NCBI RefSeq assembly: GCF_020985305.1
Contig: NZ_CP087588.1
Location: forward strand, 2,913,501-2,977,500
Length of the DNA: 64,000 bases
Reading direction: 5' to 3'
Source: Croceicoccus sp. Ery15
GTDB lineage: Bacteria; Pseudomonadota; Alphaproteobacteria; Sphingomonadales; Sphingomonadaceae
Shown: positions 3,002 to 19,476 of the stretch, piece by piece
How positions within the stretch are numbered: the first letter of the stretch is position 1
Layout of the letters: each line of letters opens with the position of its first letter
Notes under the pieces: generated by a model
What the model was told of the DNA's origin: nothing
Seen by the model: only the letters and a program-made list of their open reading frames with translations
Database searches by the model: none
Translations under genes and position numbers: made by a program

Positions 3002-3639
3002 CCCGTCCCATCGTCATCGCCGGAACCGATACCGATGTCGGCAAGACCGTCTTTGCCGCCGCGCTGGCGGGGGCGCTTGGCGCGCATTACTGGAAACCGG
3101 TGCAGGCCGGCTTCGACCCGTTCGAGGGGAAGATGGAAGGCGATGCCGACCGCGCCGCGCGGCTGGGCGGCATTCCCGCGGATCGGGTGCTGCCCGAAAT
3201 CCACCGGCTGAACACGCCCTGTTCACCGCATCTGGCGGCAGAGATCGACGGGGTGACGATCGACCCCGCCACGCTGGCGATTCCCGAAGTCGATGGCCCG
3301 CTGGTGATCGAAATGGCAGGCGGGCTGATGGTGCCATTGACGCGCGATACCACTTTCCTTGACGTGATCGCCCGCTGGCAGGTCCCCGTGGTGCTGGTCG
3401 CGCGCACCGCGCTGGGCACGATCAACCATAGCCTGCTGTCGATCAGCGCGCTGCGCCAGCGCGGCATACCGCTGACCGGCGTGGCCTTTATGGGCGAAGC
3501 GAATGCGGACAGCGAACGCACGATCTGCGAGATGGGGCAGGTCAGGCGGCTGGGCAGGCTCGACCCGCTCGACCCGCTGAATGCCGATACGCTGGCCGCT
3601 GCCTTTGCCGCATCGTTCGACCCGCAGGATTTCGCATGA
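2998..3639 (+). CDS. bioD: ATP-dependent dethiobiotin synthetase
   Basis: Closes the ureido ring of dethiobiotin from DAPA, CO2 and ATP; cytosolic. 213 residues. The P-loop GTDTDVGKT spans residues 9-17. HYWKPVQAG supplies the substrate-binding lysine region, and [11 protein letters not shown] matches the family VEGAGGLxVPL motif with Met in place of the usual Gly. Starts with ATG overlapping the bioC stop (ATGA) and ends overlapping bioA (ATGA), so translation is likely coupled along the operon. Confidence 0.95.
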
Positions 3640-5016: not shown

Positions 5017-6057
5017 ATGCGCGTACTTGTAACGGGATCGGACGGCTATATCGGCGCGATCCTCGGGCCCGATCTGATGAAGCGCGGCTTCGACGTGGTC
5101 GGTTGCGACACCGGTTTTTACGCGGCGGGCTGGCTGTATCCCTCGCCCGATCCGGTGCCGATGGCGATCCGCAAGGATATCCGCGCCATCACGGCAGAGG
5201 ATCTGAAGGGATTCGACGCGGTGGTCCATCTGGCCGAATTGTCGAACGACCCGCTGGGCCAGCACGATCCGCACATCACCTACAAGATCAACCATGAAGG
5301 CACGCTCAGCCTTGCGCGCGCGGCGCGGGCGGCGGGTATCCGGCGCTTCGTCTATACCTCGTCCTGTTCGGTCTATGGCGCGGCCAATGCCGATTACGAA
5401 TTCGTGGACGAAACGACGCCGCCCAATCCGCAAACCGCCTATGCCGAATGCAAGGTCAGGGTAGAGCAGGATCTGGGCGCGATGGCGGGCGAGAATTTCG
5501 CCCCCTGTTTCCTGCGCAATGCGACCGCCTATGGCGCAAGCCCGCGCATGCGGTTCGACATCGTGCTCAATAATCTGTGCGGCCATGCGATGACATCGGG
5601 CGAAATCGTGCTGACCAGCGATGGCACGCCGTGGCGTCCGCTGGTGCATGTGAAGGATATTTGCCAGGCCATCCGCCTGTCGCTGATGGCGCCCGAGGAT
5701 GATATCCGCGGCCAGATCTTCAACGTGGGCGATACCGATTCCAACTATCGCATCATCGATGTGGCGACGATCGTTTCGGAAACCTTCCCCGGCTGCAAGC
5801 TGACCGTGGGGAAAAGCGATGGCGACAATCGCAGCTACAAGGTCGGCTTTTCCAAGATCAAACAGGTGCTGCCCGGGTTCCAGTGCGAATGGACCCCCGA
5901 ACGCGGCGCGCGCCAGTTGCGCACATTGTTCGAAGCGATCCATCTGACGGCAGAGGATTTCAATTCGCCGCCCTATACGCGGCTGAAGATCCTGTTGCAG
6001 AACAAGGAAAAGAGGCTCCTCGATTCAGAGCTTTGCTGGACCTTGCCGGTCGTCTGA
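5017..6057 (+). CDS. extended SDR, NAD-dependent nucleotide-sugar epimerase/dehydratase
   Basis: Member of the extended SDR family acting on nucleotide-activated sugars. Rossmann motif TGSDGYIG (GxxGxxG at residues 7-13), YTSSCSVYG with the catalytic Ser, and the Tyr/Lys pair Y142/K146 in YAECK; RPLVHVKDIC and FNVGD are typical substrate-domain motifs. 346 residues; the long C-terminal tail after the WTPERGARQL segment ends by overlapping the 3' end of the convergent SDR by 33 bp. Start ATG 5017 has a GGGGGG tract 5 nt upstream. Beside rfbF it may act on a CDP-sugar, possibly as the missing 4,6-dehydratase or an epimerase; that is inference. Exact substrate unknown. Confidence 0.8.
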   Translation: MRVLVTGSDGYIGAILGPDLMKRGFDVVGCDTGFYAAGWLYPSPDPVPMAIRKDIRAITAEDLKGFDAVVHLAELSNDPLGQHDPHITYKINHEGTLSLARAARAAGIRRFVYTSSCSVYGAANADYEFVDETTPPNPQTAYAECKVRVEQDLGAMAGENFAPCFLRNATAYGASPRMRFDIVLNNLCGHAMTSGEIVLTSDGTPWRPLVHVKDICQAIRLSLMAPEDDIRGQIFNVGDTDSNYRIIDVATIVSETFPGCKLTVGKSDGDNRSYKVGFSKIKQVLPGFQCEWTPERGARQLRTLFEAIHLTAEDFNSPPYTRLKILLQNKEKRLLDSELCWTLPVV

Positions 6058-6978
6058 CCGGACCCCGCATCCATTGCTGCGCCGCCAGTCGATCGTGCGG
6101 CGCAGCGCCTCGTCCAACGGAGTGCGCGCGTGCCAGCCGGTATCGCGCGCGATTTTTGAAACGTCGCCCGCGATCAGCGGAGCCTCGCCCGCGCGGTCGG
6201 GCAGGGCGCCGATGGCGACCAGATCGGGCCGCCCCATGATCGCGCCGATCCGCGTGACCAGATCGCGCAGCATCATCGCATCGCCTGATCCCACATTATA
6301 GGCACCCGTGACCCCCGCATCGGCCAGCGCCAGTAAGCCGCCCGCCACATCGTCGATAAAGGCAAAGTCGCGCCGGATCGTGCCGCTGGCGGTTTCGGCG
6401 GTTTCGCCCCGCAGCAGGCTGTCGATCACCGAAGGGACCAGCCGCGCCGCCCCCTCGTTCGGGCCAAAGAGATAGAAGATGCGCGCCCATGCCAGCGACA
6501 CGCCCCGATCCGCACAAAGGGCGGCGGCCCCGTCATGCAATTCCGCCTTGGCCCTGCCGTAAAGCGAGGCGGGGGCGACAGGGGTGACGCCCTCCACACA
6601 AGGCGCGTCGGAAAGCGCATATTCGGCGCAGCTTCCGCAAGCGGTGATATGCCGCCCGCCTGCCTGCGCGAACGCATCGAACAGCATCAGCCCCGCATCG
6701 CGCCAGTCGATATTGTCGGGCGCGTCCCACATGCCGCCGGGGCGGCTGCGCGCCCATGCGGCGTGGATCAGCGCGGCGGGACGGTGCCGCGCCATCAGTG
6801 CTGCGACCTCATCGCGGTTCAGCAGGTCGACACTCTCCCAGATCTCGCCATCGCCTTCATCGGTTGGCCGCTTGCCCAATGCCACGAAGCGTCGCCCGTC
6901 CGCCCGCAAGGCGCGCACCACCGCGCTGCCGACGAAACCGCTCGCACCGGTGACCAGAAAAAGCGTGTCTTCATGCAT
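6025..6978 (-). CDS. extended SDR resembling CDP-sugar synthase/reductase (abequose-synthase-like)
   Basis: 317-residue extended SDR, divergent from rfbF. NAD(P) motif TGASGFVG at residues 10-17; catalytic Tyr/Lys Y140/K144 in LYGRAKAE; RRDFAFIDDVAGG and YNVGSG in the second half recall CDP-abequose/CDP-paratose synthases (RDFxFVDDV), which reduce the 4-keto group of CDP-deoxyhexoses. The ATG at 6978 is chosen because GCGAGG lies about 8 nt upstream; an in-frame start at 7017 would add 13 residues with no homology-like features. Pairing with a cytidylyltransferase supports a CDP-sugar role, but the substrate is inferred. Confidence 0.78.
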   Translation of the reverse strand: MHEDTLFLVTGASGFVGSAVVRALRADGRRFVALGKRPTDEGDGEIWESVDLLNRDEVAALMARHRPAALIHAAWARSRPGGMWDAPDNIDWRDAGLMLFDAFAQAGGRHITACGSCAEYALSDAPCVEGVTPVAPASLYGRAKAELHDGAAALCADRGVSLAWARIFYLFGPNEGAARLVPSVIDSLLRGETAETASGTIRRDFAFIDDVAGGLLALADAGVTGAYNVGSGDAMMLRDLVTRIGAIMGRPDLVAIGALPDRAGEAPLIAGDVSKIARDTGWHARTPLDEALRRTIDWRRSNGCGVRSDDRQGPAKL

Positions 6979-7033
6979 TCGGATTACCTCGCCAAAGAGC
7001 ACGCGGCTAACCCGCATGACCCGCCGCCACAGC

Positions 7034-7043
7034 TTGCATGCAA
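7034..7043 (+). promoter_or_regulatory. perfect 10-bp palindrome in the SDR/rfbF divergent region
   Basis: TTGCATGCAA lies between two divergent start codons (6978 minus, 7087 plus), followed by an AT-richer stretch (7050-7065) suitable for a rfbF promoter. A dyad here is in the right place to control both genes. Regulator unknown. Confidence 0.3.
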
Positions 7044-7086
7044 TCGCCGTATTTGAGAAAATTCAACCGGATATTGGGGGGCACCA

Positions 7087-7920
7087 ATGAAAGTAGTTAT
7101 CCTCGCAGGCGGTCTGGGTACGCGGTTGAGCGAAGAGACTTCGGTTCGTCCGAAGCCGATGGTCGAAGTCGGCGGCAAGCCGATCCTGTGGCACATCATG
7201 CGCCACTATGCGCATTTCGGCCATAAGGAGTTCATCGTCTGTTGCGGCTACAAGGGTGAGGTGATCAAGGAATATTTCCTCAATTACCGCTCGATCAGCA
7301 GTGATTTCTCCATCAACCTCGGCAGCGGGCAGATCGATTTCCACTCGCCCTCGGACGAGGACTGGAAGGTGACGCTGGTCGATACCGGCGCGGATTCGAT
7401 GACCGGCGGGCGCGTGCGCCGCGTGCGCGACATCGTGGGGAACGAACCCTTCTGCCTGACCTATGGCGATGGCCTGTCCAATGTGCCCGTCGACCAGCTG
7501 GTCGCGTTCCACAAGGCGCAGGGCAAATGGGCGACCGTGACCGCCGTGCTGCAACCCGGCCGCTTTGGCGCACTGGGGATGAGCGAGGACGGCGCCAAGG
7601 TTACCGGATTCCGCGAAAAGGGCATGCATGACGGCGGGCATATCAATGGCGGCTTCTACGTTTGCCAGCCCGAAGTGTTCGATCTGATCGAAGGCGACAG
7701 CACGATCTGGGAACGTGGCCCGATGGAACGTCTGGTCGAACTGAACCAGCTCACCGCGTTCCGGCATGACGATTTCTGGCAATGCATGGATACGCTGCGC
7801 GACAAGACCGTGCTGGAGGAAATGTGGGCCCAGCCCGATTGCCCGTGGCGGCAGGTTTATGCAGGCAAGCCTGCGGTGGCGGAAACCATCGCCTTTCCCG
7901 GCATGGCGTTGGCCGGCTGA
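7087..7920 (+). CDS. rfbF: glucose-1-phosphate cytidylyltransferase
   Basis: Makes CDP-glucose from CTP and glucose-1-phosphate, entry step of CDP-deoxyhexose pathways. 277 residues. The nucleotidyltransferase signature LAGGLGTRLSEET with RPKPMVEVGGKPI is at the N-terminus; FCLTYGDGLSNV holds the metal-binding Asp; INGGFYV, WERGPMERL and the FWQCMDTLRD ending are diagnostic for RfbF rather than RmlA. GGGGGG ends 5 nt before the ATG. No rfbG (CDP-glucose 4,6-dehydratase) of the usual type is seen in the window. Confidence 0.93.
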   Translation: MKVVILAGGLGTRLSEETSVRPKPMVEVGGKPILWHIMRHYAHFGHKEFIVCCGYKGEVIKEYFLNYRSISSDFSINLGSGQIDFHSPSDEDWKVTLVDTGADSMTGGRVRRVRDIVGNEPFCLTYGDGLSNVPVDQLVAFHKAQGKWATVTAVLQPGRFGALGMSEDGAKVTGFREKGMHDGGHINGGFYVCQPEVFDLIEGDSTIWERGPMERLVELNQLTAFRHDDFWQCMDTLRDKTVLEEMWAQPDCPWRQVYAGKPAVAETIAFPGMALAG

Positions 7921-7944
7921 CGCGCGAAGATCGCTTCGCCCGTA

Positions 7945-8379
7945 TCAGTCGAACCGGGCGAAGGGATTGCCGCAGACCTGCGCAATCGACACATATTCGA
8001 TCGGATCGGTGGGCGTTGCGCGCTGGAAAAAATTCGATCCCATTACGAAATTGGTGGTCACGCGGCGGACAAATGTCTCGTAAGGGCCCTGACCGCCAAG
8101 GATTTCATCCAGCCCCGCAAACCCCGATAATTGTTGCATATACATCAGCGGCCTGACCTTGCTCAGATCCTCGTCCGCGTTCATGTAATCGCTGGCAAAG
8201 GCCTCTGCCGCTCCGGGCGCGATGGGCTCGCCAGACAGATAATGGCGAACCAGCCTTGCGTAAAAGCTCTCGACCTCGGCCGACAGCACAATCGCACCGC
8301 CGCCTGCCAGAACCGCCGCGCCCGCCGTGCCGCCCAGAATAGCGTTGCGGCGCGTGAATTTCGGCATGAATTTCATCAT
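7945..8379 (-). CDS. Tat-signal small subunit, predicted partner of the GMC dehydrogenase
   Basis: 144-residue protein starting with a twin-arginine-like signal (TRRNAILGG followed by an Ala/Gly hydrophobic stretch to about residue 33). No cofactor motif. It lies 4 bp downstream of the GMC oxidoreductase gene on the same strand. This arrangement resembles the small gamma subunit of FAD-glucose and gluconate dehydrogenases, a Tat 'hitchhiker' that carries the catalytic subunit across the membrane; like those it has a lone Cys near the C-terminus (VCGNPFARFD). I see no clear sequence identity beyond that pattern, so the assignment rests on context. Confidence 0.65.
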   Translation of the reverse strand: MMKFMPKFTRRNAILGGTAGAAVLAGGGAIVLSAEVESFYARLVRHYLSGEPIAPGAAEAFASDYMNADEDLSKVRPLMYMQQLSGFAGLDEILGGQGPYETFVRRVTTNFVMGSNFFQRATPTDPIEYVSIAQVCGNPFARFD

Positions 8380-8383
8380 GGTC

Positions 8384-9844
8384 CTACCCCGCCAGATATT
8401 CCGCCGAACGCAGCGACAGCGCCGCTGCGGTTAGCGTGGGATTGACGCTTCCGCTCGTCGGAAAAACCGACGTGCCGACCACCACCAGATTGCGCACCGC
8501 GTGGCTGACCAGATGGTCGTCGACCACCGAATTTTCGGCACTGGTGCCCATCCGGCAAGTGCCCTGCACATGACCCAGTGTCGGGCAGATCTTGGGATCG
8601 CGGATGTCCTCTATCGGCAGCGGGCTCAGTATGTCTGGCAACCGGCTCATCGCGTGGGCCAGCGTGTTGTGTGCATAATCGGACCAATGGCCGAATTTCA
8701 CCGCCGGCGTATCGCCGCCATCGTCGAAGACGCCGTTTTCATAATACATGTGATCCTCGACATAGAGGTCCAGCGGCAGACAATCGCGCCAGCGCCCCGG
8801 CGGATCGAGCCGTAGCCCGTGGTCGAAGCCGTTCTTGAAGATCAGCAAACTTGAACCGCGATCCTTGGTGCGTCCTTCCTCGATCAGGGAAAGATTCATC
8901 GCCGTCGCCGCTGTGCCGCCATCGTAATGCTGCAATCCGTCGAGATTAACCTCGACATTGACGAGCATTTTTTCGCCCAGATAGCGGCCCACCCCATGTC
9001 CGCCGATTCCCGAACGCAGCATGATGAACGGCGACCACAGCGCATTCGCACCCAGCACGCACAAGTTGCAGGATGCCTTGTAGTCCCGGGCCCCGTGCCG
9101 GAATTGCACCGATTTGACGACCCCGTCTGCCGTTTCCAGCATTTGCACTTCGCTGTCGATGCAGATGGAAACGGAGGGGTGCGACAGCACTCCTTCGAAC
9201 CCGTTGAGTGCATTGAATTTCGCATCCACGGGGCAAAGATTGCAGCGCGATACAGAACAACAGCGATTGCGCCGCGATTCATCGGTGGTGCGCGAAAGCT
9301 TTGCCGTGGGCATGGCGTAATGCAGATGGTCGTCCCGCTTGCGCATCAGTTCGTCAACCGACGACAGATGATGCGGCGGCTGCGGATAGGGGGCCGTGCC
9401 GGGGAAATGCGGCTCCAGCTCGTCCGAACCGGCGATCAGCATGAAATTTTCGGCTTGCTGGTAGAACGGGACCAGATCGTCGTAACCGACCGGCCAGTCG
9501 ACGCTGGTGCCCGTCAGGCTATGGATGCGGAAATCGTCGGGATGCAGCCGCGGGGTCAGCGCCCACCAGCAATTGCTGCTGCCGCCCAGACCGATCGTAA
9601 AGGCCCATTCCTTGTGAAATTCGCCGATATTGCGATAGGTGCTGTGGTTATCGACCGGCGCGTTCAGTGAATTGTCGATCTGCCACTGATGGGTGTTATG
9701 CCCGCCCTTTTCGACGATCAGCACGCGTTGGCCGGTCTTCGCCTCCAGAAATTTCTGGAGGAAGAAAAGCGAGCCCATGCCCGATCCGACGGCGACGACA
9801 TCCCATGTTTGCGCAGCCGCCTGTTCTGCGCCGATAAAGTTCAT
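8384..9844 (-). CDS. GMC-family FAD oxidoreductase with [Fe-S]-type cysteine motif (FADGDH-like)
   Basis: 486-residue GMC oxidoreductase oxidising an alcohol group of a sugar-like substrate. FAD motif AVGSGMGS around residues 18-25; GLGGSSNCWW is the FAD-contact motif; GHVQGTCRMG and FPTSGSVNPTLT near the C-terminus carry the GMC active-site region. Cysteines C195, C196, C201 and C204 (RCCSVSRCNLCPVDAK) match the [3Fe-4S] region of FAD-dependent glucose dehydrogenase alpha subunits. It has no signal peptide, consistent with export by its Tat partner at 7945-8379. The ATG at 9844 is preferred over a GTG at 9859 because GGGGGG lies 7 nt upstream. No multihaem cytochrome subunit is nearby, so the electron acceptor is unknown. 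Confidence 0.83.
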   Translation of the reverse strand: MNFIGAEQAAAQTWDVVAVGSGMGSLFFLQKFLEAKTGQRVLIVEKGGHNTHQWQIDNSLNAPVDNHSTYRNIGEFHKEWAFTIGLGGSSNCWWALTPRLHPDDFRIHSLTGTSVDWPVGYDDLVPFYQQAENFMLIAGSDELEPHFPGTAPYPQPPHHLSSVDELMRKRDDHLHYAMPTAKLSRTTDESRRNRCCSVSRCNLCPVDAKFNALNGFEGVLSHPSVSICIDSEVQMLETADGVVKSVQFRHGARDYKASCNLCVLGANALWSPFIMLRSGIGGHGVGRYLGEKMLVNVEVNLDGLQHYDGGTAATAMNLSLIEEGRTKDRGSSLLIFKNGFDHGLRLDPPGRWRDCLPLDLYVEDHMYYENGVFDDGGDTPAVKFGHWSDYAHNTLAHAMSRLPDILSPLPIEDIRDPKICPTLGHVQGTCRMGTSAENSVVDDHLVSHAVRNLVVVGTSVFPTSGSVNPTLTAAALSLRSAEYLAG

Positions 9845-9948
9845 GTTCGATCCCCCCACCGGATCTGTCGTTCGAATTCACTCCTGTCTGTTGCCACCCG
9901 TTCGCGGGCATTTCCGTTGCCCGCCCTTTATTCGATGCCTGTTGCCGG

Positions 9949-10974
9949 TCAGCCCGCCGGCGCGGGACTGTCCTGTCGTTCGCTTTTCTGCCGCTCCGCG
10001 ACCTCGGACGAAAAGACGAGGATGCCGTCCTCGGGCTTGTCGCCAATGTCATAGGGCGCGATCACATCGTCGGCCAAAGCCGCCTCGTCGCTCATCCGGC
10101 GGAAGTCGCGCAGGGCAGTGCCGGTGGAGCCATTGTCCACGTTCAGCGCGCCCAGCCCTTGCGCCACATGGTCGCCGTCGACGATGCGGAAATCGATGCT
10201 GAACCGCGTCATCCCCGTCACATTGTCCGATGTCGCATGCAGCTGGTTGGCCGAAAAGATCACCGCACCGCCCACCGGCAGCGTTACCTGCACCGCGGCA
10301 GGATGGTCGAGCGGGGCGAAGGGTTGCGGAATGCCGCGCTTGTCCTCGCCCTGCTTGTGCTCGGCCGCTTTCAACCGGCCGCGCGCGTTCCATGCATAGA
10401 TGTTGAAATCGTCAGAGCTGTTCTCGACCCCCGTTTCGACATAATGCGGATAGAATTCCATCGAGCATTCGCGGCTCATCGCAAAGACAGGCAGCCAGAA
10501 CTGGATCTGCTGCATCGGGGCGGACCACCATGTGTCGCGATGCGGCGGCTGTTTGTGCCCCACGCCCGATGTGAGATAGCCGTCGCTCGACACCACCCGC
10601 ATGCGCGGCACATCGAGGAAGGTGCGCGCGGGATCGAACCCCAGCTCTTCCAGATATTGCTTTTGCAGCGCGCGGGTCTGCGGATCGTGGATGAAACGCG
10701 GTTTGACCGCCGCCGCGCGCGCGACGAAATCGTCGACCGACAAATGGTGCTGCGCCGTGCGCGGATCGTGCGGGGCGAATGCCTCTTCCACCATGCGCTG
10801 CGCATGTTCGCACAGCGCGATGCTGGCAGGCGTGGGCGGCAACAGGTTCAGCTGGCCGCGATAGATCGCCTTTTCCTCATCCTCGATAGAGCCGGGCAGG
10901 CCGACCGTCACGGCGATCGAATGCCTGTCATTCGGGCGTTCGCCCGTGCGGCCTGCCGGGTGCGACATGGTCAT
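9949..10974 (-). CDS. phytanoyl-CoA dioxygenase-like Fe(II)/2-oxoglutarate enzyme
   Basis: 341-residue member of the PhyH-like non-haem iron superfamily, probably hydroxylating a sugar or lipid intermediate. Iron ligands: H145 and D147 in PPHRDTWW and the distal H246 in NQLHATSDN, followed by an Arg-containing strand (TRFSIDFR) for 2-oxoglutarate. The ATG at 10974 overlaps the upstream DUF707 stop (ATGA) and has GGAAGGGA upstream, so the longer in-frame reading to 11073 is rejected. Co-transcribed with the DUF707 and FAD-mutase-like genes. Substrate unknown. Confidence 0.75.
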   Translation of the reverse strand: MTMSHPAGRTGERPNDRHSIAVTVGLPGSIEDEEKAIYRGQLNLLPPTPASIALCEHAQRMVEEAFAPHDPRTAQHHLSVDDFVARAAAVKPRFIHDPQTRALQKQYLEELGFDPARTFLDVPRMRVVSSDGYLTSGVGHKQPPHRDTWWSAPMQQIQFWLPVFAMSRECSMEFYPHYVETGVENSSDDFNIYAWNARGRLKAAEHKQGEDKRGIPQPFAPLDHPAAVQVTLPVGGAVIFSANQLHATSDNVTGMTRFSIDFRIVDGDHVAQGLGALNVDNGSTGTALRDFRRMSDEAALADDVIAPYDIGDKPEDGILVFSSEVAERQKSERQDSPAPAG

Positions 10975-11873
10975 AGCAAGATCCCTTCCTGCCGGACCGG
11001 AACGGCGGGCTTTGGCAAGTAATTCACCTCTGTCAAAGCGCGCAGGAAAACGCCGATCGTCGATTTGAAGCAACGCGGCTTGTCGCGGCAGCGCCAGCTA
11101 TGGCCAAGCAGGCTGATCCCGTTAGCGATCCGCGTCTGCGTCGCGCCGATGCGCTGGCCCTGATTGTCGATCCCGCCATAGACCATCATCTTGTCGGGAA
11201 TATTGTCATAGCTTCTGACCAGCGCGGCCAGTTCGTCCTGCGGACCCATTTTTTCCTTGGCGAAATCCTTGTAAATTCCGCCGGTCGCGTGCGGACGCGT
11301 ATGCAGCATCGAGATTTCGTCGATGATCGCGGATCTAAATGCCGGATCGGGCATGGTCACTGTCCAGATCCGGTCCATGCCCCAACCGGTTTTCACCTTG
11401 GACAGGGTGGGCATGAAGCTTTTGAGATAATCGGTGCGGATGGCGGTTGCCATGCATTCGACGAAGTTCGAAAAACGCAGCTTCGTCCCCTTGCATTGCA
11501 GCAGGATCGCATAGCAGAAATAGCTGTCCGGATGCAGCGACGGCTGGGCCAGTAGCAGATCGTGCTCTTTGCAAATCTCGAAATAGCGGTTGAGGTCGGA
11601 TTTGGTGAAGACCAGATCGTCGTCCATGAACGCGATATAGCGATAGCGGTCCATGACGTCGGGATTGGCGGCGAGATAGCGATAGATGCTGTCCCACTTT
11701 GTCCCCTTGTCGATCGAGATTGGGAGATCGCCGTCGGCCCCGATATCGGGGTCGTCGATCCACTGGCTGACGATCAGGTCCCAGTTGCGGTCCCCCGGCC
11801 CTTCCAGCCAGCCATGATGGAGCGAGGTTTTGCCCCCGCGCACGAAAACGAGATTCTCTCTCGTGCTATTCAC
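10971..11873 (-). CDS. DUF707-family protein, possible glycosyltransferase-like enzyme
   Basis: 300 residues, recognisable as DUF707, a family with no settled function. The middle holds YIAFMDDDLVF, a DDD motif like the metal-binding DxD of GT-A glycosyltransferases, followed by the conserved GWGMDRIW and HTRPHATGG segments. GTG start at 11873 overlaps the preceding stop (GTGA), and its own TGA overlaps the next ATG. This three-gene coupling (FAD enzyme, DUF707, dioxygenase) suggests one biochemical unit. The glycosyltransferase idea is inference from DDD and context only. Confidence 0.7.
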   Translation of the reverse strand: MNSTRENLVFVRGGKTSLHHGWLEGPGDRNWDLIVSQWIDDPDIGADGDLPISIDKGTKWDSIYRYLAANPDVMDRYRYIAFMDDDLVFTKSDLNRYFEICKEHDLLLAQPSLHPDSYFCYAILLQCKGTKLRFSNFVECMATAIRTDYLKSFMPTLSKVKTGWGMDRIWTVTMPDPAFRSAIIDEISMLHTRPHATGGIYKDFAKEKMGPQDELAALVRSYDNIPDKMMVYGGIDNQGQRIGATQTRIANGISLLGHSWRCRDKPRCFKSTIGVFLRALTEVNYLPKPAVPVRQEGILL

Positions 11874-13246
11874 GTCAGCCCCCCGTAACTATGGCTGCCA
11901 ACGACGGCTGCCCCCGCTCGCCGCGATTGCAGCCGATCCAGCGCCTTTTGCGCGGCATTCTCGCCACTTTTGAAGGCCTGGTCGGTCCAGATGTAACCCC
12001 AGTCGCCGAACCGACCGCAAAAGGCGACGCCGATCTCGTCCAGATAGTCGTGGATCAGCTTTACCGCGGCGGGGCGGTCATGGTCGAAGATGATATTGGC
12101 ATAGGGCGCGACGATGGTGCTGGTATGGTTCACCTGGTCGCGCCCGTCGATCAGCCCCGCCTTGAGCAGCCCGTCGATCACTGGTTCGATATAGGCATCG
12201 GCAGGCTTGGTGCGGGGTTTCCATTTCTGGCTGAAATAGACCTCTGCCTGCAGCGCGCTGCAGCCCTTGGGCGCAACATTGGGCGAGAAGTTCGACGGAT
12301 AGGACAGCCGCGCAAAGCAGATGTCCTCGTCATAGAAATAGGTCCAGTGCGCGTCCTTGATGAACGGCTTGGTGACGCCGATGTTGACCAGCACCACTTC
12401 GGTGCAGGCGAGCTTTGCCGCGGCGGCCTTCACATCGTCGGGCGCGCCCTTGATCATCGGGATCAGGCTGGGCAGCGCGACCGACGACACCACCGCGTCA
12501 TAGGGCGCCACCCGCCCGTCGCGCATCGTCAGCGTGCGGGCGACCGGATCGATTTCGGTGATTTCCGAATTCACCTGCAGGTTCGCACGGTCGCGGAAAC
12601 CGTTGAGATAGGACACGAATCCGCCATGCGTGGGATAGCGGAAATGGTCGACATAATGCACGTCGGGCGATTGTTCGTTCAGCGCGCCGACCAGCATCTG
12701 TTCGAGGCTGGGGCGATAAAGCCGCGGGCCGAGCCAGTCGGTCGTCAGGTTCTTCGCCTCGGTCGAATGGTATTTCTTGGTATATTCCATCGGAAAGGTC
12801 CGCGCGAACGTCTCTCCGAAGGCGGCGAGCAGCCAGTCCTCGTAATTCCCGATCTTCGCTTCCTCGACCGGCGTTTTCGACGCCTCTACGAAGTCGCGGA
12901 TGCATTTCATGATCAGATCGGTCGGCAGACCGTGCAGATTGGTCTGCGCCGGATGCTTGATGAAATGACCCTGCCAGAAATTATCGACATAGGCGCGCAG
13001 CCGTTCGAACGTGCCGCCGATGGAATCGGCGAACAGTTCCTGCAGGCGCTTGTCCTCTGTGAAAGAGATATGCGGACCTTCGTCGAACAGATAGCCGTCG
13101 ACATAGGCATGGGTGGAGGTATGCCCGCCATGCACGGGGCGCTTTTCGTAGATTGTCGCGTTCACTGCCTCGCCCGACAGGGCGTGCGAGGCGCCGAAAC
13201 CGGCGAAACCCGATCCGATGATGGCGATATTGGGCTTGCTTGCCAC
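11870..13246 (-). CDS. FAD-dependent UDP-galactopyranose-mutase/protoporphyrinogen-oxidase-like protein
   Basis: 458-residue flavoprotein of the NAD(P)-binding Rossmann / amine-oxidase superfamily. IAIIGSGFAGFGASH (GxGxxG at residues 11-16), YEKRPVHGGHTSTH for FAD ribose and pyrophosphate contacts, and DEGPHISF follow in order; the C-terminal CGRFGDWGYIW is the second FAD-contact motif. Together with its setting in a polysaccharide cluster this favours a UGM-like ring contraction or a sugar desaturation/oxidation rather than haem synthesis. GTG start; no strong Shine-Dalgarno. The 3' end overlaps the DUF707 gene by 4 bp. Confidence 0.7.
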   Translation of the reverse strand: MASKPNIAIIGSGFAGFGASHALSGEAVNATIYEKRPVHGGHTSTHAYVDGYLFDEGPHISFTEDKRLQELFADSIGGTFERLRAYVDNFWQGHFIKHPAQTNLHGLPTDLIMKCIRDFVEASKTPVEEAKIGNYEDWLLAAFGETFARTFPMEYTKKYHSTEAKNLTTDWLGPRLYRPSLEQMLVGALNEQSPDVHYVDHFRYPTHGGFVSYLNGFRDRANLQVNSEITEIDPVARTLTMRDGRVAPYDAVVSSVALPSLIPMIKGAPDDVKAAAAKLACTEVVLVNIGVTKPFIKDAHWTYFYDEDICFARLSYPSNFSPNVAPKGCSALQAEVYFSQKWKPRTKPADAYIEPVIDGLLKAGLIDGRDQVNHTSTIVAPYANIIFDHDRPAAVKLIHDYLDEIGVAFCGRFGDWGYIWTDQAFKSGENAAQKALDRLQSRRAGAAVVGSHSYGGLT

Positions 13247-13277
13247 GTTAGTTGCGCGTCCCTGTTATATTTTGGTC

Positions 13278-14579
13278 TTAGTCTTCGATTTGGGCCTTGG
13301 GGACGGGAACGATGAACTTGCCGCCCCAGTCGCGCACGGCGGCCATCTGTTCCTTGATCTCGTCCTTCAGGTTCCAGGGCAGGATAAGCACGTAATCGGG
13401 CCGCGTGTTCAGGATCTCGTTAGGGTCCAGAATCGGGACGCCGACGCCGGGGAAGTAACAGCCCTGTTTGGAAGGAGCGCGGTCCACCGTGTAATCGATG
13501 AAGTCGCTGTCCACCCCGCAATAATTCAACAGCGTCACGCCCTTGGCCGGCGCGCCATAGCCGACGATGGTCTTGCCCTGTTTCTTCAGGTCGAGCAGCA
13601 GTTCGAGCAGCGCGAATTTCGTTTCCAGAATATCGGCCCGCCACGCGCGATAGGTGGCCGGATTGTCGAGCCCGTATTCCAGCTCTTCATTGCGCATCGC
13701 TTCCAGCGAAATTTCGTTCGGACGGGCGGCATCCTTGCGGCACACGAAAAAGCGCACCGATCCGCCATGGGTCGGCAGATTTTCGACCGCGAAGACGCGT
13801 AAATCAGCCGCATCGAACAGCCGTTCCGCCGCGATCAGCGAGAGATAGGAGAAATGTTCGTGATAAATCGTGTCGAACTGGCGGCCCTGCATCAGGCGCA
13901 GCAAGTGCTGCACTTCGAATGTGGCGACGCCTTCGGGCTTCAGGATCGCGGCAATGCCGCGCACGAAATCATTGATAAAGGGCACATGGGCCAGCACATT
14001 ATTGGCGGTGACCAGATCGGCCTGCCATCCCCGTGCGGCAAGCGATTTGCCATAGGCCTCGGTCATGAATTCGATATCGACGTCGATGCCCATCCGCCGG
14101 GCCATTTCGGCGGGGCCTGCGGTCGGTTCTACCCCGAAACAGGGGATGCCGGCCGCCTTGACATATTGCAGCAGATATCCGTCGTTGCAGGCAACTTCGA
14201 CCACCTTGCTGTCGGCGGTCAGGCCGAACCGTTCGACAGCCATGTCGACATAGGCCTTCGCATGCGCCAGCCATGTCGTCGAATGGGACGAGAAATAGGT
14301 GTAATCGGCGCGGAAAATCGCATCGGCGGGCAGCACATCGCCCGCCTGCGCCAGCCAGCATTGCCCGCAAACCCGCACCGCGAGCGGATAGGTCGCCTCC
14401 GGCTCGCCCATGCGGTCTTTGGGGATCATGTCATTGGCGACGGGGCTGTGCCCCAGATCGGCCAGCACGATGTCCAGCGGAGCATCGCAATGGCGGCATT
14501 TCGCGCCGCTTGCTGCCGCGGTCGTTACACTGCCCGTGTGCGGATCGCTTTGAACCGCTGCCGCCCCGCCATTGTTCAT
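13278..14579 (-). CDS. three-domain sugar C-methyltransferase (NovU/TylC3-like)
   Basis: SAM-dependent C-methyltransferase for nucleotide-linked keto-deoxysugars, 433 residues. N-terminal zinc domain with C28/C31 (CRHCDAPL) and a second CxxC (VCGQCW); central SAM domain with VVEVACNDGYLL; catalytic IYHEHFSYLS segment; C-terminal domain with KTIVGYGAPAKGVTLLNYC, typical of the family. The ATG at 14579 is chosen (GGGGGG 11 nt upstream) over a TTG at 14603. With RfbF and the SDRs it suggests a C-methyl-branched CDP-deoxyhexose (3-C-methylation is the usual activity of such enzymes). Exact sugar unknown. Confidence 0.85.
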   Translation of the reverse strand: MNNGGAAAVQSDPHTGSVTTAAASGAKCRHCDAPLDIVLADLGHSPVANDMIPKDRMGEPEATYPLAVRVCGQCWLAQAGDVLPADAIFRADYTYFSSHSTTWLAHAKAYVDMAVERFGLTADSKVVEVACNDGYLLQYVKAAGIPCFGVEPTAGPAEMARRMGIDVDIEFMTEAYGKSLAARGWQADLVTANNVLAHVPFINDFVRGIAAILKPEGVATFEVQHLLRLMQGRQFDTIYHEHFSYLSLIAAERLFDAADLRVFAVENLPTHGGSVRFFVCRKDAARPNEISLEAMRNEELEYGLDNPATYRAWRADILETKFALLELLLDLKKQGKTIVGYGAPAKGVTLLNYCGVDSDFIDYTVDRAPSKQGCYFPGVGVPILDPNEILNTRPDYVLILPWNLKDEIKEQMAAVRDWGGKFIVPVPKAQIED

Positions 14580-14609
14580 GTTCCGATCAACCCCCCGGTT
14601 CAATTCTGG

Positions 14610-14635
14610 AAAATTATGCGCCCCGCTACGGGGCG
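14610..14635 (-). terminator. intrinsic terminator after the GT2 gene
   Basis: On the minus strand a perfect 7-bp stem (14619-14625/14629-14635) with a 3-nt loop is followed by CATAATTTT, directly after the stop of the upstream glycosyltransferase. It separates that gene from the methyltransferase unit. Confidence 0.75.
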
Positions 14636-14637
14636 GA

Positions 14638-15762
14638 CTAGCCTGTCGCCGCCTCGCTATTTTCGAAACGCTCGGTAAACCGCTTGTGGATCAGCTTGCG
14701 GGCAAGAGGTGCGGGCGCGGCCAGAACGGCCAGCACCCAGCCCGCCACGATCACCCGCTTTTTCAGCGGGTCGAAATTCCTGCGAAAGACCGATCCGATC
14801 GCATCGATACCCGCCGTCAGCCGCCCGTCGCCGGGCATCGGATGGCACTCTGGCGTCAGGCGCAGGCTGGCAGCGCGCAGTTGCAGCAAATGGCGGCTGC
14901 GACGCAGGCTGTCGGGCCGCGGCAGTTCCACACCCTGCTGCGCGCAAATCACCTCTGCAGTGTGCTGGCGCTTTATCGCCCGCGCCACTTCGCGCGCAAA
15001 CTTGTCGGGCCGCGTGCCCAGGTTCGAATCGTTCGCGCCGTGCTGGCGATACAAAACCAGCGGTTCGACCACTGTCACCACATCGCCCATCAACGGAGCA
15101 AGGGCGAGGCAGGTCGAATCGGTGGCGCTGTCATGCTCTGGCCCGATGGGGAAGAGCTGTTCCAGAAAGCGGCGCGCATAGGCATTGGCCGATCCGGGCG
15201 GTGTGGGATATTCGGTCGAACTGCGCGCCCATGCGGTGATCTGCGCCGGTTCGGGGCGAAAGGATAAATCGGGAATGAGATCGCCGAATGGGCGGTCCTC
15301 TGCATCGATCAGCTGCATCTGGACCTGCACCTTGGTCACTGCCGGGCCCCATGCGGCGGCGACGGCCGTCGCAAATCCGGGTTCGAGAGCATCGTCAGCG
15401 TCGAGGAATACGACCACATCGCCGGTCGATTGCGCGAAGGCCGCATTATTGGCAATGCGCTGCCCTGAATTGTCCTGATAGATCGCGGTGATCGAACCGG
15501 CAAAGCTTTCGATGACCTCGCGCGAATTGTCGGTCGATCCGTCATCGACGACGATCACTTCGATATCGGGCCAGTCCATCGCCAGCGCGCTTTCGATCGC
15601 GCGGCCCAGAAAACGGTCGTAATTGTAATTGGCGATCAGGATCGAAAAGCGTCTCGGCGAAATGGAATGGCCGGTCTGCGCACGCGGTGCGGCGCGGACA
15701 TCGTCCGTAAACGCGGTCGATCGCTGCACGGGTTCCGTGTCGGGATGCACTGCCACAAACAT
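14638..15762 (-). CDS. family 2 glycosyltransferase
   Basis: 374-residue GT-A fold enzyme, probably adding one sugar to the repeat unit of the exported polysaccharide on the cytoplasmic face. FSILIANYNYDRFL opens the domain after a 35-residue N-terminal lead; VIVVDDGSTDNS and VVFLDADDAL carry the nucleotide and metal-binding aspartates. A C-terminal hydrophobic stretch (KRVIVAGWVLAVLAAPAPLA) may associate it with the membrane. The ATG at 15762 is chosen as it has AGGGGG about 12 nt and CAGG about 6 nt upstream; a longer reading to 15831 is in-frame but unsupported. Confidence 0.85.
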   Translation of the reverse strand: MFVAVHPDTEPVQRSTAFTDDVRAAPRAQTGHSISPRRFSILIANYNYDRFLGRAIESALAMDWPDIEVIVVDDGSTDNSREVIESFAGSITAIYQDNSGQRIANNAAFAQSTGDVVVFLDADDALEPGFATAVAAAWGPAVTKVQVQMQLIDAEDRPFGDLIPDLSFRPEPAQITAWARSSTEYPTPPGSANAYARRFLEQLFPIGPEHDSATDSTCLALAPLMGDVVTVVEPLVLYRQHGANDSNLGTRPDKFAREVARAIKRQHTAEVICAQQGVELPRPDSLRRSRHLLQLRAASLRLTPECHPMPGDGRLTAGIDAIGSVFRRNFDPLKKRVIVAGWVLAVLAAPAPLARKLIHKRFTERFENSEAATG

Positions 15763-15922
15763 GTTTTGCCTGAGCCCCCTTTCTGACCCGCAAAAAAATC
15801 GAAACCGGATTGCTGCCCCCAGCTCCGGCATTCAAGCCGCGCGCTGGCCCGATCTCAAGGTCCCATTCGATAGCTACCCCTAAGGGTCACGACCGACTGG
15901 CGGGCCACTCCAGCCTTCCTTG

Positions 15923-16795
15923 TTAAAGGTCGAGTATCCGTAACGGATCGGCGCGACCGCGTAATACATCGCCAAAGGCGCGTATGTTTCCTTTCAACCG
16001 TCCGCGCCGGTCGACCAGCGGTTCCGGCCGTATGCTTTTCGCCAGATTCGCCGCGACATTGCGCGCCATCAGCGCCCAGCCATGAACCGCGCCGATCGTG
16101 CCCTTGCGGCGAAGATAGACGATATTCGCAACCTGCGAATATCCCAGCTTCAGACCCGACGTGCGGCCTCCGCGCGTGCCCATGTGTATGCCGGTGATGG
16201 CATTGGTCCGCAGCATATGGCCGCGACGTGCCAGCTGTTCGGTAAAGTCCACGTCTTCCTGCCAGCCGTATAGCGGCAGGTTTTCGTCGAACGACAAGCC
16301 TTCGCATGCGCTCATGCGGAAGGCCATGTTGCAGCCGTACAGCCAGCTGGTTCTTTCATCGGGCCGGGCGGGACGCGGCGCGCCCGCGTCGAGCATCGCC
16401 TCGGCCTCTTCATACGAAAGCGCGCCGGTCTGCGCGCCGTCTGCGATCAGCCAGCCGGTCAGGCCGACCAGCTTCGGATCGGCAACAAACAGAGCTTCCA
16501 GCCTTTCAAGGAAATCATGCGCGACCACGAAATCATCGTCAAAGAAGACCACCGCATCGGTCTTTCCGCGTAGCAGCGACAAGGCGACATTGCGCTGGCA
16601 GCAAAGGCCCTTTTTGGGCGAGACCACCGCATGTTCGGGCGCCATGTCCAGCGCATCCACACCCGCGATATCATCGGGCGATGCGCCGACGACCACGATC
16701 CCGTCGGGCAGGCGCGTCTGGTGCTTGAAGCGGTCGACCACCTTGCACAGCACATCGGGCCGCCCGGTGGTGGCAATCGCCACATGGATCCGCAT
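15923..16795 (-). CDS. family 2 glycosyltransferase
   Basis: 290-residue GT2 enzyme. MRIHVAIATTGRPDVL begins the fold; CCQRNVAL, DAVVFFDDDFVV (DxD-type metal site) and YGWQEDVDFTEQL (acceptor-side ED motif) are in the expected order. Basic C-terminal third. Start ATG with GGAGAAG about 8 nt upstream. A short region (16796-16956) containing an 8-bp inverted repeat (16897-16904/16928-16935) lies between it and the next upstream gene. Donor and acceptor not predictable. Confidence 0.85.
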   Translation of the reverse strand: MRIHVAIATTGRPDVLCKVVDRFKHQTRLPDGIVVVGASPDDIAGVDALDMAPEHAVVSPKKGLCCQRNVALSLLRGKTDAVVFFDDDFVVAHDFLERLEALFVADPKLVGLTGWLIADGAQTGALSYEEAEAMLDAGAPRPARPDERTSWLYGCNMAFRMSACEGLSFDENLPLYGWQEDVDFTEQLARRGHMLRTNAITGIHMGTRGGRTSGLKLGYSQVANIVYLRRKGTIGAVHGWALMARNVAANLAKSIRPEPLVDRRGRLKGNIRAFGDVLRGRADPLRILDL

Positions 16796-16956
16796 GGTTC
16801 AACTTCTCCGCTTGAACGCCCGTCATCGACGGGGCCATCTCGCGCAATCAATACGCCGTGCGCGGGCGATCTGCCATGGCGAACAAGGTCGAACCTCCAA
16901 AGGGTTAAACAAAGGGTTAAGACGCGACCCTTTGGAATCGGCATCAGCAGCGGGGC

Positions 16957-17982
16957 TTATGCCAGTGCCCCCTCGAACCCGGCGGCAAAGCTGTCCCACG
17001 TCAGGCTGTCGAGGTAATGCGACAGCATGTCGGCATCTTTTTTAAGCACGCGGTAATGGATCACGCTGTCGATCTGCGCAGCCAGATCGCTGCCATCGGG
17101 TTGGTAGCAAGTGATCCACGGGCCCACGCTTTCGCCGATTTCGCGGAACAGCGGCAGATCGGCGCAAAGCAGCGCGGTCGAATGTTCCAGCACCTTTACC
17201 GCCATGCCCGAATTCCAGCATACCGTATAAGGCAGCACGATCGCCGCCGACTGCGCGATGATCGTGTCCAATTCATCATGGCCGGGGCGGCGGTCGTCCC
17301 AGTCGATGCTGCAACCCGCGTCGCGCGCCTTGTCGATCAGCGTCTGGATCGTCGCGGCATATTCGGGATCATCGCAATGGCCGATGATTTCCAGCGGAGT
17401 CGCGATCCGCTGCTCTGCATATAGCGCGAGGAATCGGTCCAGCCCCTTATAGACACGGATGTCGCCGACAAAGCGCAGCGAGGCGCGTGCCGGTGCGGTG
17501 GTTGTCGGTGCCGGTGCGTGGGCGCGGAAATGCGGGTGGAACAGGGTCTGGTGGTCGGGGCTTGCCAGTTCGGGGAATCTGGCGGCAAACGCCGCGCGCG
17601 AAGAGGCGGAGAGGAAGACATATTGATCGGTCAGCCACGCGCTCAGCTTGCGGTTGATCCGGCGCAGCAGACGCCGGTGCCTGTGCAATTCGTCGACATC
17701 ATGCACGATTCGCACCACCTGCGCGCCCCGCAGCTTTAGATAGGAGAGTAGCGCAAAGAACATCCCCGTGCGCAGCCACGCCACCGGCAGTGAACGGGTG
17801 GTCGAGAAATGATCGGGCCAATGGATGATCACCGCATCATAGGCTGTGCGGAGATATTTGCGGGGTTCGTTATCGTGCACTTGCCAGCCACGCGATTCGA
17901 GGCTGTCGGCCAAAAGCCCGGGAAACGGATTCAGGTTCGACATTCCGCGGGACGGAATACTCAATGCTGTTCGATCTTTCAA
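16957..17982 (-). CDS. glycosyltransferase, GT-B fold (GT4-like)
   Basis: 341 residues with a GT-B arrangement: N-terminal acceptor domain (AYDAVIIHWPDHF, VVRIVHDVDELHRH) and C-terminal donor domain starting LRFVGDIRVYKGLDRFLALY, with ATPLEIIGHC, IVLPYTVCWNSGMAVKVLEH (phosphate-contact loop) and PLFREIGESVG. This C-terminal layout is typical of GT4-related transferases. TTG start at 17982 is preferred because AAAAGGGGG lies 8 nt upstream and the N-terminal IPSRGMSNLNPF segment fits the family; ATG 17943 is an alternative. First gene of the minus-strand series. Confidence 0.78.
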   Translation of the reverse strand: MKDRTALSIPSRGMSNLNPFPGLLADSLESRGWQVHDNEPRKYLRTAYDAVIIHWPDHFSTTRSLPVAWLRTGMFFALLSYLKLRGAQVVRIVHDVDELHRHRRLLRRINRKLSAWLTDQYVFLSASSRAAFAARFPELASPDHQTLFHPHFRAHAPAPTTTAPARASLRFVGDIRVYKGLDRFLALYAEQRIATPLEIIGHCDDPEYAATIQTLIDKARDAGCSIDWDDRRPGHDELDTIIAQSAAIVLPYTVCWNSGMAVKVLEHSTALLCADLPLFREIGESVGPWITCYQPDGSDLAAQIDSVIHYRVLKKDADMLSHYLDSLTWDSFAAGFEGALA

Positions 17983-18453: not shown

Positions 18454-19476
18454 ATGACCAAGATTCCCGTCCTTGTGACCGGCGGTGCCGGCTATATCGG
18501 CAGCCATGCTGTGCTGGCACTGGTGGATCGCGGCTGGCCGGTGGCGGTGCTGGACGATCTGTCGACCGGCTTTCGCTGGGCCGTGCCCGACGGCGTGCCG
18601 TTCTATCAGGGCGACGTGGCCGATGGCGCGCTGGTAAAGCGGATCTTCGACGAACAGGGGATCGGGGCGATCATGCATTTTGCAGGATCGATCGTGGTGC
18701 CCGAATCGGTCGAAAACCCGCTGAAATATTACGACAACAACACGGGGAAGAGCCGGAACCTGATCGCTTCCGCGGTCGAGGCAGGGATCCCGCATTTCAT
18801 CTTCTCGTCCACCGCCAGCGTCTATGGCGAGGCGGAGGCGAAGCCCTTGTCGGAGGACGTGCCGATCGCGCCGTTCAATCCCTACGCCATGTCCAAGGCC
18901 ATGACCGAGCGTGTGCTGGCCGATACCGCCAAGGCGCATGACATGAATTATTGCGTGCTGCGCTATTTCAACGTGGCGGGCGCCGATCCTGCGGCGCGCA
19001 GCGGCCAGTCGGGCGTTGGCTCCACCCATCTGATCAAGGTCGCGCTGGAAGCGGCGCTGGGCAAGCGCAAGGAAGTGGCGGTCTTCGGGCTCGACTATCC
19101 GACCCGCGACGGCACGGGTATTCGCGATTACATCCATGTCAGCGATCTGGCCGCCGCCCATGTCCATGCGCTGGAGGCCCTGATTGCCGAGCCTGCCCGC
19201 AACCTCACCATGAATGTCGGCTATGCCAGGGGCTTCTCGGTGCTGGAAGTGCTGGACGCGGTGGACCGCGTGGTCGGCACGCCGGTTCCCCGCCGGATGG
19301 AAGGGCGACGTGCGGGCGATGTCTCGGCGCTGCTGGCGGATAATTCCAAGCTGCTTGCCACCACGCCATGGCAGCCCGCGTTCGACGATCTGGAACAGAT
19401 CATCACCGATGCACTACGGTGGGAGACAAAGCTGCAGGCGATGCGCGATGCCGAAAGGGAACGCGAAAACGCCTGA
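18454..19476 (+). CDS. galE: UDP-glucose 4-epimerase
   Basis: Interconverts UDP-glucose and UDP-galactose; extended SDR of 340 residues. VTGGAGYIGSHA is the NAD motif, LDDLSTGFRWAV the ribose-contact loop, STASVYGEAE the catalytic Ser region, NPYAMSKAMTER the Tyr/Lys pair, YFNVAGADP and GTGIRDYIHVSDLA the GalE-specific substrate motifs. Likely supplies UDP-galactose for the adjacent polysaccharide cluster as well as LPS. A 7-bp hairpin (19479-19485/19491-19497) follows the stop but lacks a proper T-run. Confidence 0.93.
   Translation: MTKIPVLVTGGAGYIGSHAVLALVDRGWPVAVLDDLSTGFRWAVPDGVPFYQGDVADGALVKRIFDEQGIGAIMHFAGSIVVPESVENPLKYYDNNTGKSRNLIASAVEAGIPHFIFSSTASVYGEAEAKPLSEDVPIAPFNPYAMSKAMTERVLADTAKAHDMNYCVLRYFNVAGADPAARSGQSGVGSTHLIKVALEAALGKRKEVAVFGLDYPTRDGTGIRDYIHVSDLAAAHVHALEALIAEPARNLTMNVGYARGFSVLEVLDAVDRVVGTPVPRRMEGRRAGDVSALLADNSKLLATTPWQPAFDDLEQIITDALRWETKLQAMRDAERERENA

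Follow-up and report, generated by a model that had tools for sequence, protein, structure and literature searches.

Known routes to 4-keto and methyl-branched nucleotide sugars

In the part of a review of nucleotide-sugar dehydratases used here (PMC8987622), cytidine diphosphate (CDP)-glucose is the entry to deoxy sugars via 4,6-dehydratases, and the signature of CDP-glucose dehydratases is [ST]DK. A different oxidation is carried out by Cj1427 of Campylobacter jejuni, a C4-dehydrogenase whose tightly held NADH is re-oxidised by 2-oxoglutarate to give L-2-hydroxyglutarate. According to the same section of the source, the C4-dehydrogenase of C. jejuni leads to 6-hydroxy heptoses and a 4,6-dehydratase to 6-deoxy products, with an epimerase and a reductase common to both (PMC10680097). 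The present analysis concerns a sugar cluster at positions 5017-17982 of a 64,000-nucleotide window of the marine bacterium Croceicoccus sp. Ery15 (2,913,501-2,977,500 of the single-contig genome, 3.63 Mb; its protein neighbours, from Croceicoccus, Erythrobacter and Altererythrobacter, suggest a place in or close to the Erythrobacteraceae), in which a short-chain dehydrogenase/reductase (SDR), g06, stands at the place of the CDP-glucose 4,6-dehydratase RfbG. An initial annotation had interpreted the cluster as a pathway to a C-methyl-branched CDP-deoxyhexose. With a probability of roughly two in three, the cluster would instead make a C-methyl-branched CDP-hexose that keeps its 6-hydroxyl, each chemical step of this reading being predicted from sequence.

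CDP-vinelose of Azotobacter is a methyl-branched, 6-deoxy sugar. Virenose is likewise a methyl-branched hexose and, unlike the sugar proposed here, 6-deoxy (PMC3539893, in the part cited), and 3-C-methyl-D-mannose of the Helicobacter pylori O-antigen has the methyl branch and the retained O6 of the proposed sugar (PMC12961483, in the part cited). No route to a 6-hydroxy C-methyl hexose was described in those parts of the literature that were examined. The Cj1427 route (C4-dehydrogenase, C3/C5-epimerase and C4-reductase) resembles the one proposed here in that an SDR gives a 4-keto nucleotide sugar with O6 kept (PMC10680097, in the part cited). Cj1427 is also the closest profile match to the g06 family, and epimerase and reductase companions occur in both. 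Unlike in that guanosine diphosphate-heptose route, the loci described here contain RfbF (for CDP-glucose), frequent C-methyltransferase companions and, in some cases, a linked L-2-hydroxyglutarate oxidase (LhgO). For the CDP-D-fucofuranose and CDP-6-deoxy-L-altrofuranose of C. jejuni HS:41, an RfbF-type enzyme, a 4-keto sugar, a C4-reductase and a flavin-dependent CDP-pyranose/furanose mutase are described, as proposed here for g08, g07 and g13; that route differs in its genuine 4,6-dehydratase and in the lack of C-methylation among its five enzymes (PMC12369002, in the part cited). In the same study, CDP-glucose was observed at m/z 564.06 and the product of the dehydratase at 546.06. Neither a CDP-glucose C4-dehydrogenase nor an RfbF-LhgO-SDR operon was found in titles and abstracts of the open-access literature, a search that covered neither subscription papers nor preprints and does not prove absence.

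An SDR without the dehydratase residues takes the place of RfbG

Codon-usage gene calling gave twelve genes, g06-g17, in 5017-17982, and the gene types listed in the initial annotation are among them. Four of the twelve are:

5017..6057, plus strand: g06, SDR at RfbG's place, proposed Cj1427-like CDP-glucose C4-dehydrogenase
6025..7017, minus strand: g07, second SDR, proposed C4-reductase for the CDP-4-keto sugar
7087..7920, plus strand: g08, RfbF, glucose-1-phosphate cytidylyltransferase (TIGR02623)
13278..14603, minus strand: g14, sugar C-methyltransferase of the NovU/TylC3/TcaB9 type (Methyltransf_13 and Methyltransf_14)

The start of a CDP route by RfbF was upheld, as g08 exceeded the curated TIGR02623 equivalog cut-off (380.8 versus 300.25 bits). 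C-methyl branching was likewise supported by g14, which matched PDB entry 5t64 at 254.6 bits and contains the Methyltransf_13 zinc domain with its zinc-site Cys kept, an S-adenosylmethionine-binding domain, Methyltransf_14 and the segment IYHEHF (versus IYDEHF), whose His and Glu we take to be catalytic. Methyltransferases of the TylC3/TcaB9 type act, by precedent, beside a 4-ketone. The missing canonical RfbG proved to be missing from the whole complete genome, in which the best match to TIGR02622 reached 55.3 bits against a cut-off of 278.45, and the suggestion that an RfbG partner lies elsewhere was thereby removed. TIGR02622 was not in the match list of g06 (E<=0.001), and g07 matched it at just 21.7 bits.

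The residues of the g06 family were surveyed in 106 members scoring at least 350 bits with a custom hidden Markov model, a set that excludes weaker ones such as those of L064, L067 and G700. The position of the RfbG Asp carried Cys in 106/106 members, versus Asp in 20/20 RfbG sequences; the position of the RfbG Lys, kept in 20/20 RfbG, was Lys in none of the 106 and Ser, Ile or Ala instead. The oxidoreductase Tyr was retained in all members and its Lys in 104. The family wall motif is S[ST]C, and g06 itself has Ser-Cys-Ser at the dehydratase site and an SDR triad of S116, Y142 and K146. A divergent dehydratase was rejected as the identity of g06 for lack of the Asp-Lys catalytic pair. Searched against the PDB, the family profile matched Cj1427 first, with 182.7 bits, followed by 113.5 bits for the next entry. 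Two motifs shared with Cj1427, SPxxRxDxxxN and DxRxYxV, occurred together in 88 of the 106 members, and neither was found in any of the 20 RfbG sequences. By profile, triad and the missing dehydratase pair, g06 is a putative Cj1427-type nucleotide-sugar C4-dehydrogenase, with a predicted 2-oxoglutarate-dependent ping-pong oxidation of C4. Since g06 lacks the Asp-Lys pair for 4,6-dehydration and its nearest solved profile relative oxidises C4 without removing O6, the term deoxyhexose is probably wrong.

The structural model of g06 (pLDDT 92.6) was nearest in fold to Cj1427, with ~25-27% identity in the structural alignment, yet tied with UDP-glucose 4-epimerases; fold was consequently set aside as giving no resolution between dehydrogenase and epimerase. 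This tie, together with galE as the best NCBIfam model for g06 (86.5 bits, far below its cut-off of 262.3), would suit an ordinary C4-epimerase that converts CDP-glucose into CDP-galactose, with the ketone staying enzyme-bound and g14 acting on another sugar. Such an assignment is unlikely: the profile lies closer to Cj1427 than to any listed epimerase (182.7 versus 113.5 bits), users of a free 4-keto sugar travel with the family and RfbF (C-methyltransferase in 50 and RmlC-type epimerase in 54 of the 80 loci examined below), and the linked LhgO genes would be left without a role. Oxidation or epimerisation by g06 at another carbon of CDP-glucose, for instance C2 as in CDP-tyvelose 2-epimerase, with the methyl branch entering elsewhere, is very improbable. 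By precedent, the accompanying TylC3/TcaB9-type methyltransferase works next to a 4-ketone. An SDR acting directly on C2 of CDP-glucose, TaTyvE, is known, but TyvE-like epimerases retain a TNK segment according to the part of the source used (PMC13098431), and the wall motif of the g06 family reads S[ST]C.

The g06 family and RfbG are almost mutually exclusive beside RfbF

The co-occurrence of the three genes was counted in 196 genomes of the order, with the g06 family scored at E<=1e-45. RfbG was present in 13, RfbF in 19 and the g06 family in nine. All 13 genomes with RfbG had RfbF and none had the g06 family; all six RfbF genomes without RfbG had the g06 family, and three further genomes had the family without RfbF.

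The class sample comprised 385 genomes, with E<=1e-60 as the threshold for RfbF and RfbG, which admits some matches below the curated cut-offs (at least one match above the cut-off in 99 of 108 genomes for RfbF and 84 of 86 for RfbG). Matches to the g06 family were split afterwards into close and weak ones at a gap between 247 and 224 bits. Among 116 RfbF genes across the 108 genomes, 77 had RfbG within 15 kb, 15 had a close family member within 3 kb and one had a weak member; none lay beside both and 23 lay beside neither. The 24 RfbF genomes without RfbG divided into 13 with a close member, three with weak members only and eight with none. A close member was also present in four of the 84 RfbF genomes with RfbG, and in G325, G426 and G508, which hold both systems, RfbG and the g06-family SDR each stand beside their own RfbF copy. 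Seen from the SDR side, 15 of 24 close family genes had RfbF within 3 kb and none had RfbG within 15 kb.

Gene order showed the same replacement. Three loci (L215, L221 and L224) read RfbF-RfbG-C-methyltransferase-RmlC-reductase, and L249 reads RfbF / SDR-C-methyltransferase-RmlC-reductase, with the SDR in RfbG's slot. As controls served the 20 RfbG loci with the top RfbF scores among the 77 RfbG neighbours, a non-random choice in which L211 and L213 are cut by contig ends; they held C-methyltransferase in 11, RmlC in 11, RfbH in six and the g06 family in none. The 19 alphaproteobacterial family loci (from the 24 close genes, leaving out three of the Ery15 genome, G420 and G561) held RfbF in 14, C-methyltransferase in 12, RmlC in seven, and neither RfbG nor RfbH. 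Relatives of g07 occupied the reductase place in 6/20 RfbG loci and 1/19 family loci. No aminotransferase-fold gene that could be RfbH was detected among the twelve genes of the Croceicoccus cluster (E<=0.001; a genome-wide search was not made). Canonical RfbF-RfbG(-RfbH) and RfbF-RfbG-C-methyltransferase-RmlC operons share the first enzyme, the slot and the downstream enzymes with the g06-family loci and differ in that an SDR without the Asp-Lys pair stands for RfbG.

Mutual exclusion of the g06 family and RfbG is near-complete. An exception is L111 (Anaerolineae), where a family SDR occurs together with RfbG and an LhgO-like gene, no RfbF being in view. The suggestion in the initial annotation that the role of RfbG may have passed to one of the SDRs is supported, as the family occurs beside RfbF mostly where RfbG is missing. 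An SDR without dehydratase residues holds RfbG's place across phyla, and this comparative result is the strongest part of the analysis. It also bears on the idea that an unlinked dehydratase makes a 4-keto-6-deoxy CDP sugar, with g06 and g07 both serving as reductases or epimerases. A candidate exists at 3.292 Mb, an RmlB-like STDEVYG protein with the dTDP-type Asp-Glu motif and 54.6 bits with the RfbG model, and the class has many RfbF-RfbG loci that also hold C-methyltransferase and RmlC, an arrangement fitting C-methyl 6-deoxy sugars (11/20 RfbG loci examined). That explanation must account for a g06 family that sits beside RfbF mostly where RfbG is missing, and in RfbG's slot of an otherwise similar operon; it is regarded as quite unlikely.

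The g06 family is spread over several bacterial phyla

When GTDB genomes were searched with the family alignment, at least 249 relatives emerged, of which the best 80 were examined as loci. They come from Cyanobacteria, Chloroflexi, Actinobacteria, Proteobacteria, Acidobacteria, Verrucomicrobia and others. With thresholds of at least 150 bits for RfbF and C-methyltransferase and at least 200 for RfbG, RfbF was found in 64, C-methyltransferase in 50, both in 46, RmlC-like genes in 54 and RfbG in one; RfbH was scored in a single locus (L136). The 51 loci with at least 5 kb on each side gave RfbF in 44, C-methyltransferase in 31, both in 30, RfbG in one and neither RfbF nor C-methyltransferase in six. 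In the 64 loci with both, RfbF and the SDR shared a strand in 62 and were no more than 3 kb apart in 59. A match to TIGR02623 at E<=1e-20 was obtained for g08 and for each of the 58 RfbF neighbours (out of 64) that were checked, 59 proteins altogether, with L085, L116, L119, L133, L139 and L147 omitted for overlong open reading frame calls. In the phylogeny, a clade of 40 sequences (support 0.988) includes g06 of the window and 12 of the 14 LhgO-linked members; its 39 other members have RfbF in 30, RmlC in 35, C-methyltransferase in 15 and RfbG in none.

Two recurrent arrangements were seen besides. RfbF and SDR are accompanied by two to three methyltransferases in L062, L063, L113, L118, L120, L122, L126, L127, L140, L142, L144 and L146, namely a C-methyltransferase plus one or two of a second type (CMT2), often in tandem; two CMT2 proteins scanned had no Methyltransf_13 match and matched Methyltransf_14 partly. 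The additional enzymes might introduce further methyl groups, or have another role. The order C-methyltransferase, RfbF-like gene (~200 bits) and SDR recurs in L101, L104, L115, L116, L119, L123, L128, L130, L131, L133, L139, L141 and L147, which are actinobacterial, many of them from Streptomyces.

A gene like that of L-2-hydroxyglutarate oxidase is linked to part of the family

For an enzyme of the Cj1427 type, LhgO would be the expected recycler of the by-product, and this analogy raised the question of what a DAO-type flavoprotein between RfbF and the SDR might be. In two loci it scored 619.9 and 618.6 bits, versus a curated LhgO cut-off of 299. LhgO-like genes (above 380 bits) were present in 14 of the 80 loci, ~1 kb or less upstream of the SDR in ten, and in none of the 20 RfbG loci. 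A gene of the LhgO superfamily, scoring under the LhgO cut-off, is linked to the cluster in the sphingomonads G142, G184 and G700. The only clear LhgO-like gene of the Ery15 genome (1.558 Mb) is remote from the cluster and scores under the family cut-off.

Several points weigh against reading this linkage as a mark of the pathway. Cyanobacteria account for nine of the ten SDR-proximal LhgO loci and a short contig of a metagenome-assembled genome for the last, none of the 19 alphaproteobacterial family loci has an LhgO-like gene, and a simple test of the linkage versus RfbG loci gave p=0.066. LhgO linkage was rejected as a general feature of the family and, since it is absent from those 19 loci, is taken as supportive and not defining.

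Tailoring genes and related clusters

The remaining genes of the cluster and the adjoining g18 are as follows:

7945..8379, minus strand: g09, small protein with a Tat-like leader (judged by eye), presumed export partner for g10
8384..9859, minus strand: g10, GMC-type flavin oxidoreductase, like the large subunit of FAD-glucose/fructose dehydrogenases (GMC_oxred_C)
9949..11073, minus strand: g11, PhyH-like 2-oxoglutarate-Fe(II) oxygenase, start likely near 10965
10971..11873, minus strand: g12, DUF707 (PF05212, 40.8 bits)
11870..13246, minus strand: g13, flavoprotein like UDP-galactopyranose mutase (UGM), proposed CDP-pyranose/furanose mutase
14638..15831, minus strand: g15, GT2 glycosyltransferase (PF00535, E=1.1e-26)
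15923..16795, minus strand: g16, weak GT2-like glycosyltransferase (PF00535, E=3.2e-6)
16957..17982, minus strand: g17, possible GT4-like glycosyltransferase (PF13439, E=0.015, sub-threshold)
18454..19476, plus strand: g18, GalE-like UDP-glucose 4-epimerase adjoining the cluster (PF01370, E=1.4e-56; wall motif STASVYG)

Some of the initial gene assignments stood in part. The PhyH-like dioxygenase g11 shows the 2-oxoglutarate oxygenase fold with an HxD...H iron-binding motif and Arg, but falls below the Pfam PhyH gathering score (14.4 versus 22 bits; orthologues 18.6 and 17.0). Of the three announced glycosyltransferases, g15 and g16 matched PF00535 and g17 gave the sub-threshold PF13439 match only. 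The presumably exported GMC dehydrogenase g10 has its GMC domain, with PDB matches 8hdd/6a2u and 7w2j, and its export hangs on the neighbouring g09, for which no family match and no PDB match was obtained and whose relatives are present in G142 and G184. The Pfam scan of the twelve genes revealed no cytochrome c subunit. The DUF707 protein g12 is possibly a GT-A-like transferase, its Glycos_transf_2 match being just E=0.12; a defence system formed by g12 and g17 was rejected, as PADLOC gave no match. Relatives of g16 sit in the corresponding loci of G142, G184, G186 and G162. Next to the cluster, g18 is a possible member of the pathway. A g11-type oxygenase also occurs with C-methyltransferase, SDR and RfbF in L070, L074, L125 and L133, from unrelated bacteria, and this recurrence suggests the methylated sugar as its substrate. 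Directly upstream of the cluster, window positions 319-4862 hold biotin-synthesis-like genes, presumably bioF, bioH, bioD and bioA from their Pfam matches.

The initial annotation had regarded independent occurrence of the genes as evidence against a common pathway. The genes g07-g08-g10-g11-g12-g13-g14 were found in identical order in G142 and G184, which belong to two other genera, with identities to the window of 74-77% (RfbF), 76-78% (g11), 74-75% (g13) and 68-69% (g14). The core of RfbF and SDR, with or without C-methyltransferase, is nevertheless widespread without the tailoring genes, and the full gene set is rare, which bears out independent occurrence in part. In G142 and G184, a g06-family SDR of another clade lies 12-14 kb on, together with an exopolysaccharide locus related to L015, so that two SDR clades apparently function in clusters of one kind.

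Aligned to the solved UGMs 4dsg and 4u8l, g13 has the flavin fold and the C-terminal GRFGxWxY motif. The diphosphate-binding arginines are presumably those corresponding to R182 and R327 of Aspergillus fumigatus UGM; the second aligns in g13 (FARLSYPSNFSP) and the first does not (PMEYTKKYH for MRPYNFKVW). Assignment as a UDP-galactopyranose mutase was rejected because of this missing Arg, and g13 was kept as UGM-like. Its recurrence with RfbF and a family SDR in all four other g13 loci (G142, G184, L138 and G700) supports a CDP-sugar as its putative substrate, a proposal weakened by the same missing residue. The L138 locus (Aliiroseovarius) has, one after the other, g07-like and g13-like genes, a GMC protein, RfbF and SDR, and that of G700 reads LhgO-like, RfbF, RmlC, one further gene, C-methyltransferase, SDR and g13-like. 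Among 239 sampled genomes of the taxonomic family, g13 was found in two (E<=1e-100), one being the Ery15 genome, and in 0/4 listed genomes of the same genus; the draw lists neither G142 nor G184, although both hold g13.

The Ery15 genome contains further loci of this type. In L016, a second RfbF, a g06-like SDR and a C-methyltransferase-like gene form a four-gene run, GT2-RfbF-SDR-CMT2. The run (L016:6457-10472, ~1.088-1.092 Mb) lies just over 2 kb downstream of fliD and could form a flagellar glycosylation module of its own that uses a methylated, CDP-linked sugar. A third pair of SDR and C-methyltransferase is in L015, a locus with Wzz- and Wzx-type genes; the Wzz/Wzx-type assembly genes of this genome, at 3.22 Mb, lie away from the cluster of the window, and two other genomes have their relatives close to the orthologous cluster. 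A recent duplication may have given rise to two equally long SDR genes (338,444-339,379 and 1,445,689-1,446,624; L007 and L008) that share STSEVYG and the same model score.

Proposed pathway and its significance

The proposed pathway is founded on the observed gene content, the absence of RfbG and near-complete exclusion with it, the lost dehydratase residues, the Cj1427-like profile and the LhgO linkage in some relatives. RfbF (g08) would make CDP-glucose, as its family does, and g06 in RfbG's place would oxidise C4, without removing water, to CDP-4-ketoglucose. On the model of Cj1427, the NADH bound tightly to g06 would be oxidised back by 2-oxoglutarate, and the resulting L-2-hydroxyglutarate recycled by an LhgO-type oxidase. 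The carbon beside the ketone, C3 by precedent, would be methylated by g14 and C4 then reduced by g07; more tentatively, ring contraction to a furanose may follow, catalysed by g13. The glycosyltransferase-like g15-g17, and perhaps the DUF707 protein g12, would incorporate the sugar in an envelope glycan, and the oxygenase g11 and the presumably exported dehydrogenase g10/g09 may further oxidise the sugar or the glycan. The initial observation is confirmed and its interpretation partly supported: the finding is real and of greater interest than had been stated, and a deoxyhexose pathway is improbable.

On balance, and with less assurance than for the cluster itself, the comparisons favour a second CDP-sugar branch in Cyanobacteria, Chloroflexi, Actinobacteria, Proteobacteria and others, in which a Cj1427-like CDP-glucose C4-dehydrogenase would act instead of the 4,6-dehydratase. 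Its turnover would depend on 2-oxoglutarate, and in some lineages an oxidase encoded in the operon would recycle the L-2-hydroxyglutarate. The ketone would enter the C-methyltransferases, RmlC-type epimerases and reductases that also serve the dehydratase route, and the products would be 6-hydroxy hexoses, methyl-branched or epimerised, and sometimes furanoses. Release of CDP-4-ketoglucose by g06, if it occurs, would assign a reaction to a widespread SDR family, make surface-glycan clusters of cyanobacteria, alphaproteobacteria and actinobacteria interpretable and account for a bacterial source and sink of L-2-hydroxyglutarate. The pathway would also offer enzymatic access to methyl-branched hexoses with O6 retained, and the apparent exchange of a dehydratase for a dehydrogenase in many unrelated bacteria could show that a major part of bacterial sugar biochemistry has gone unnoticed.

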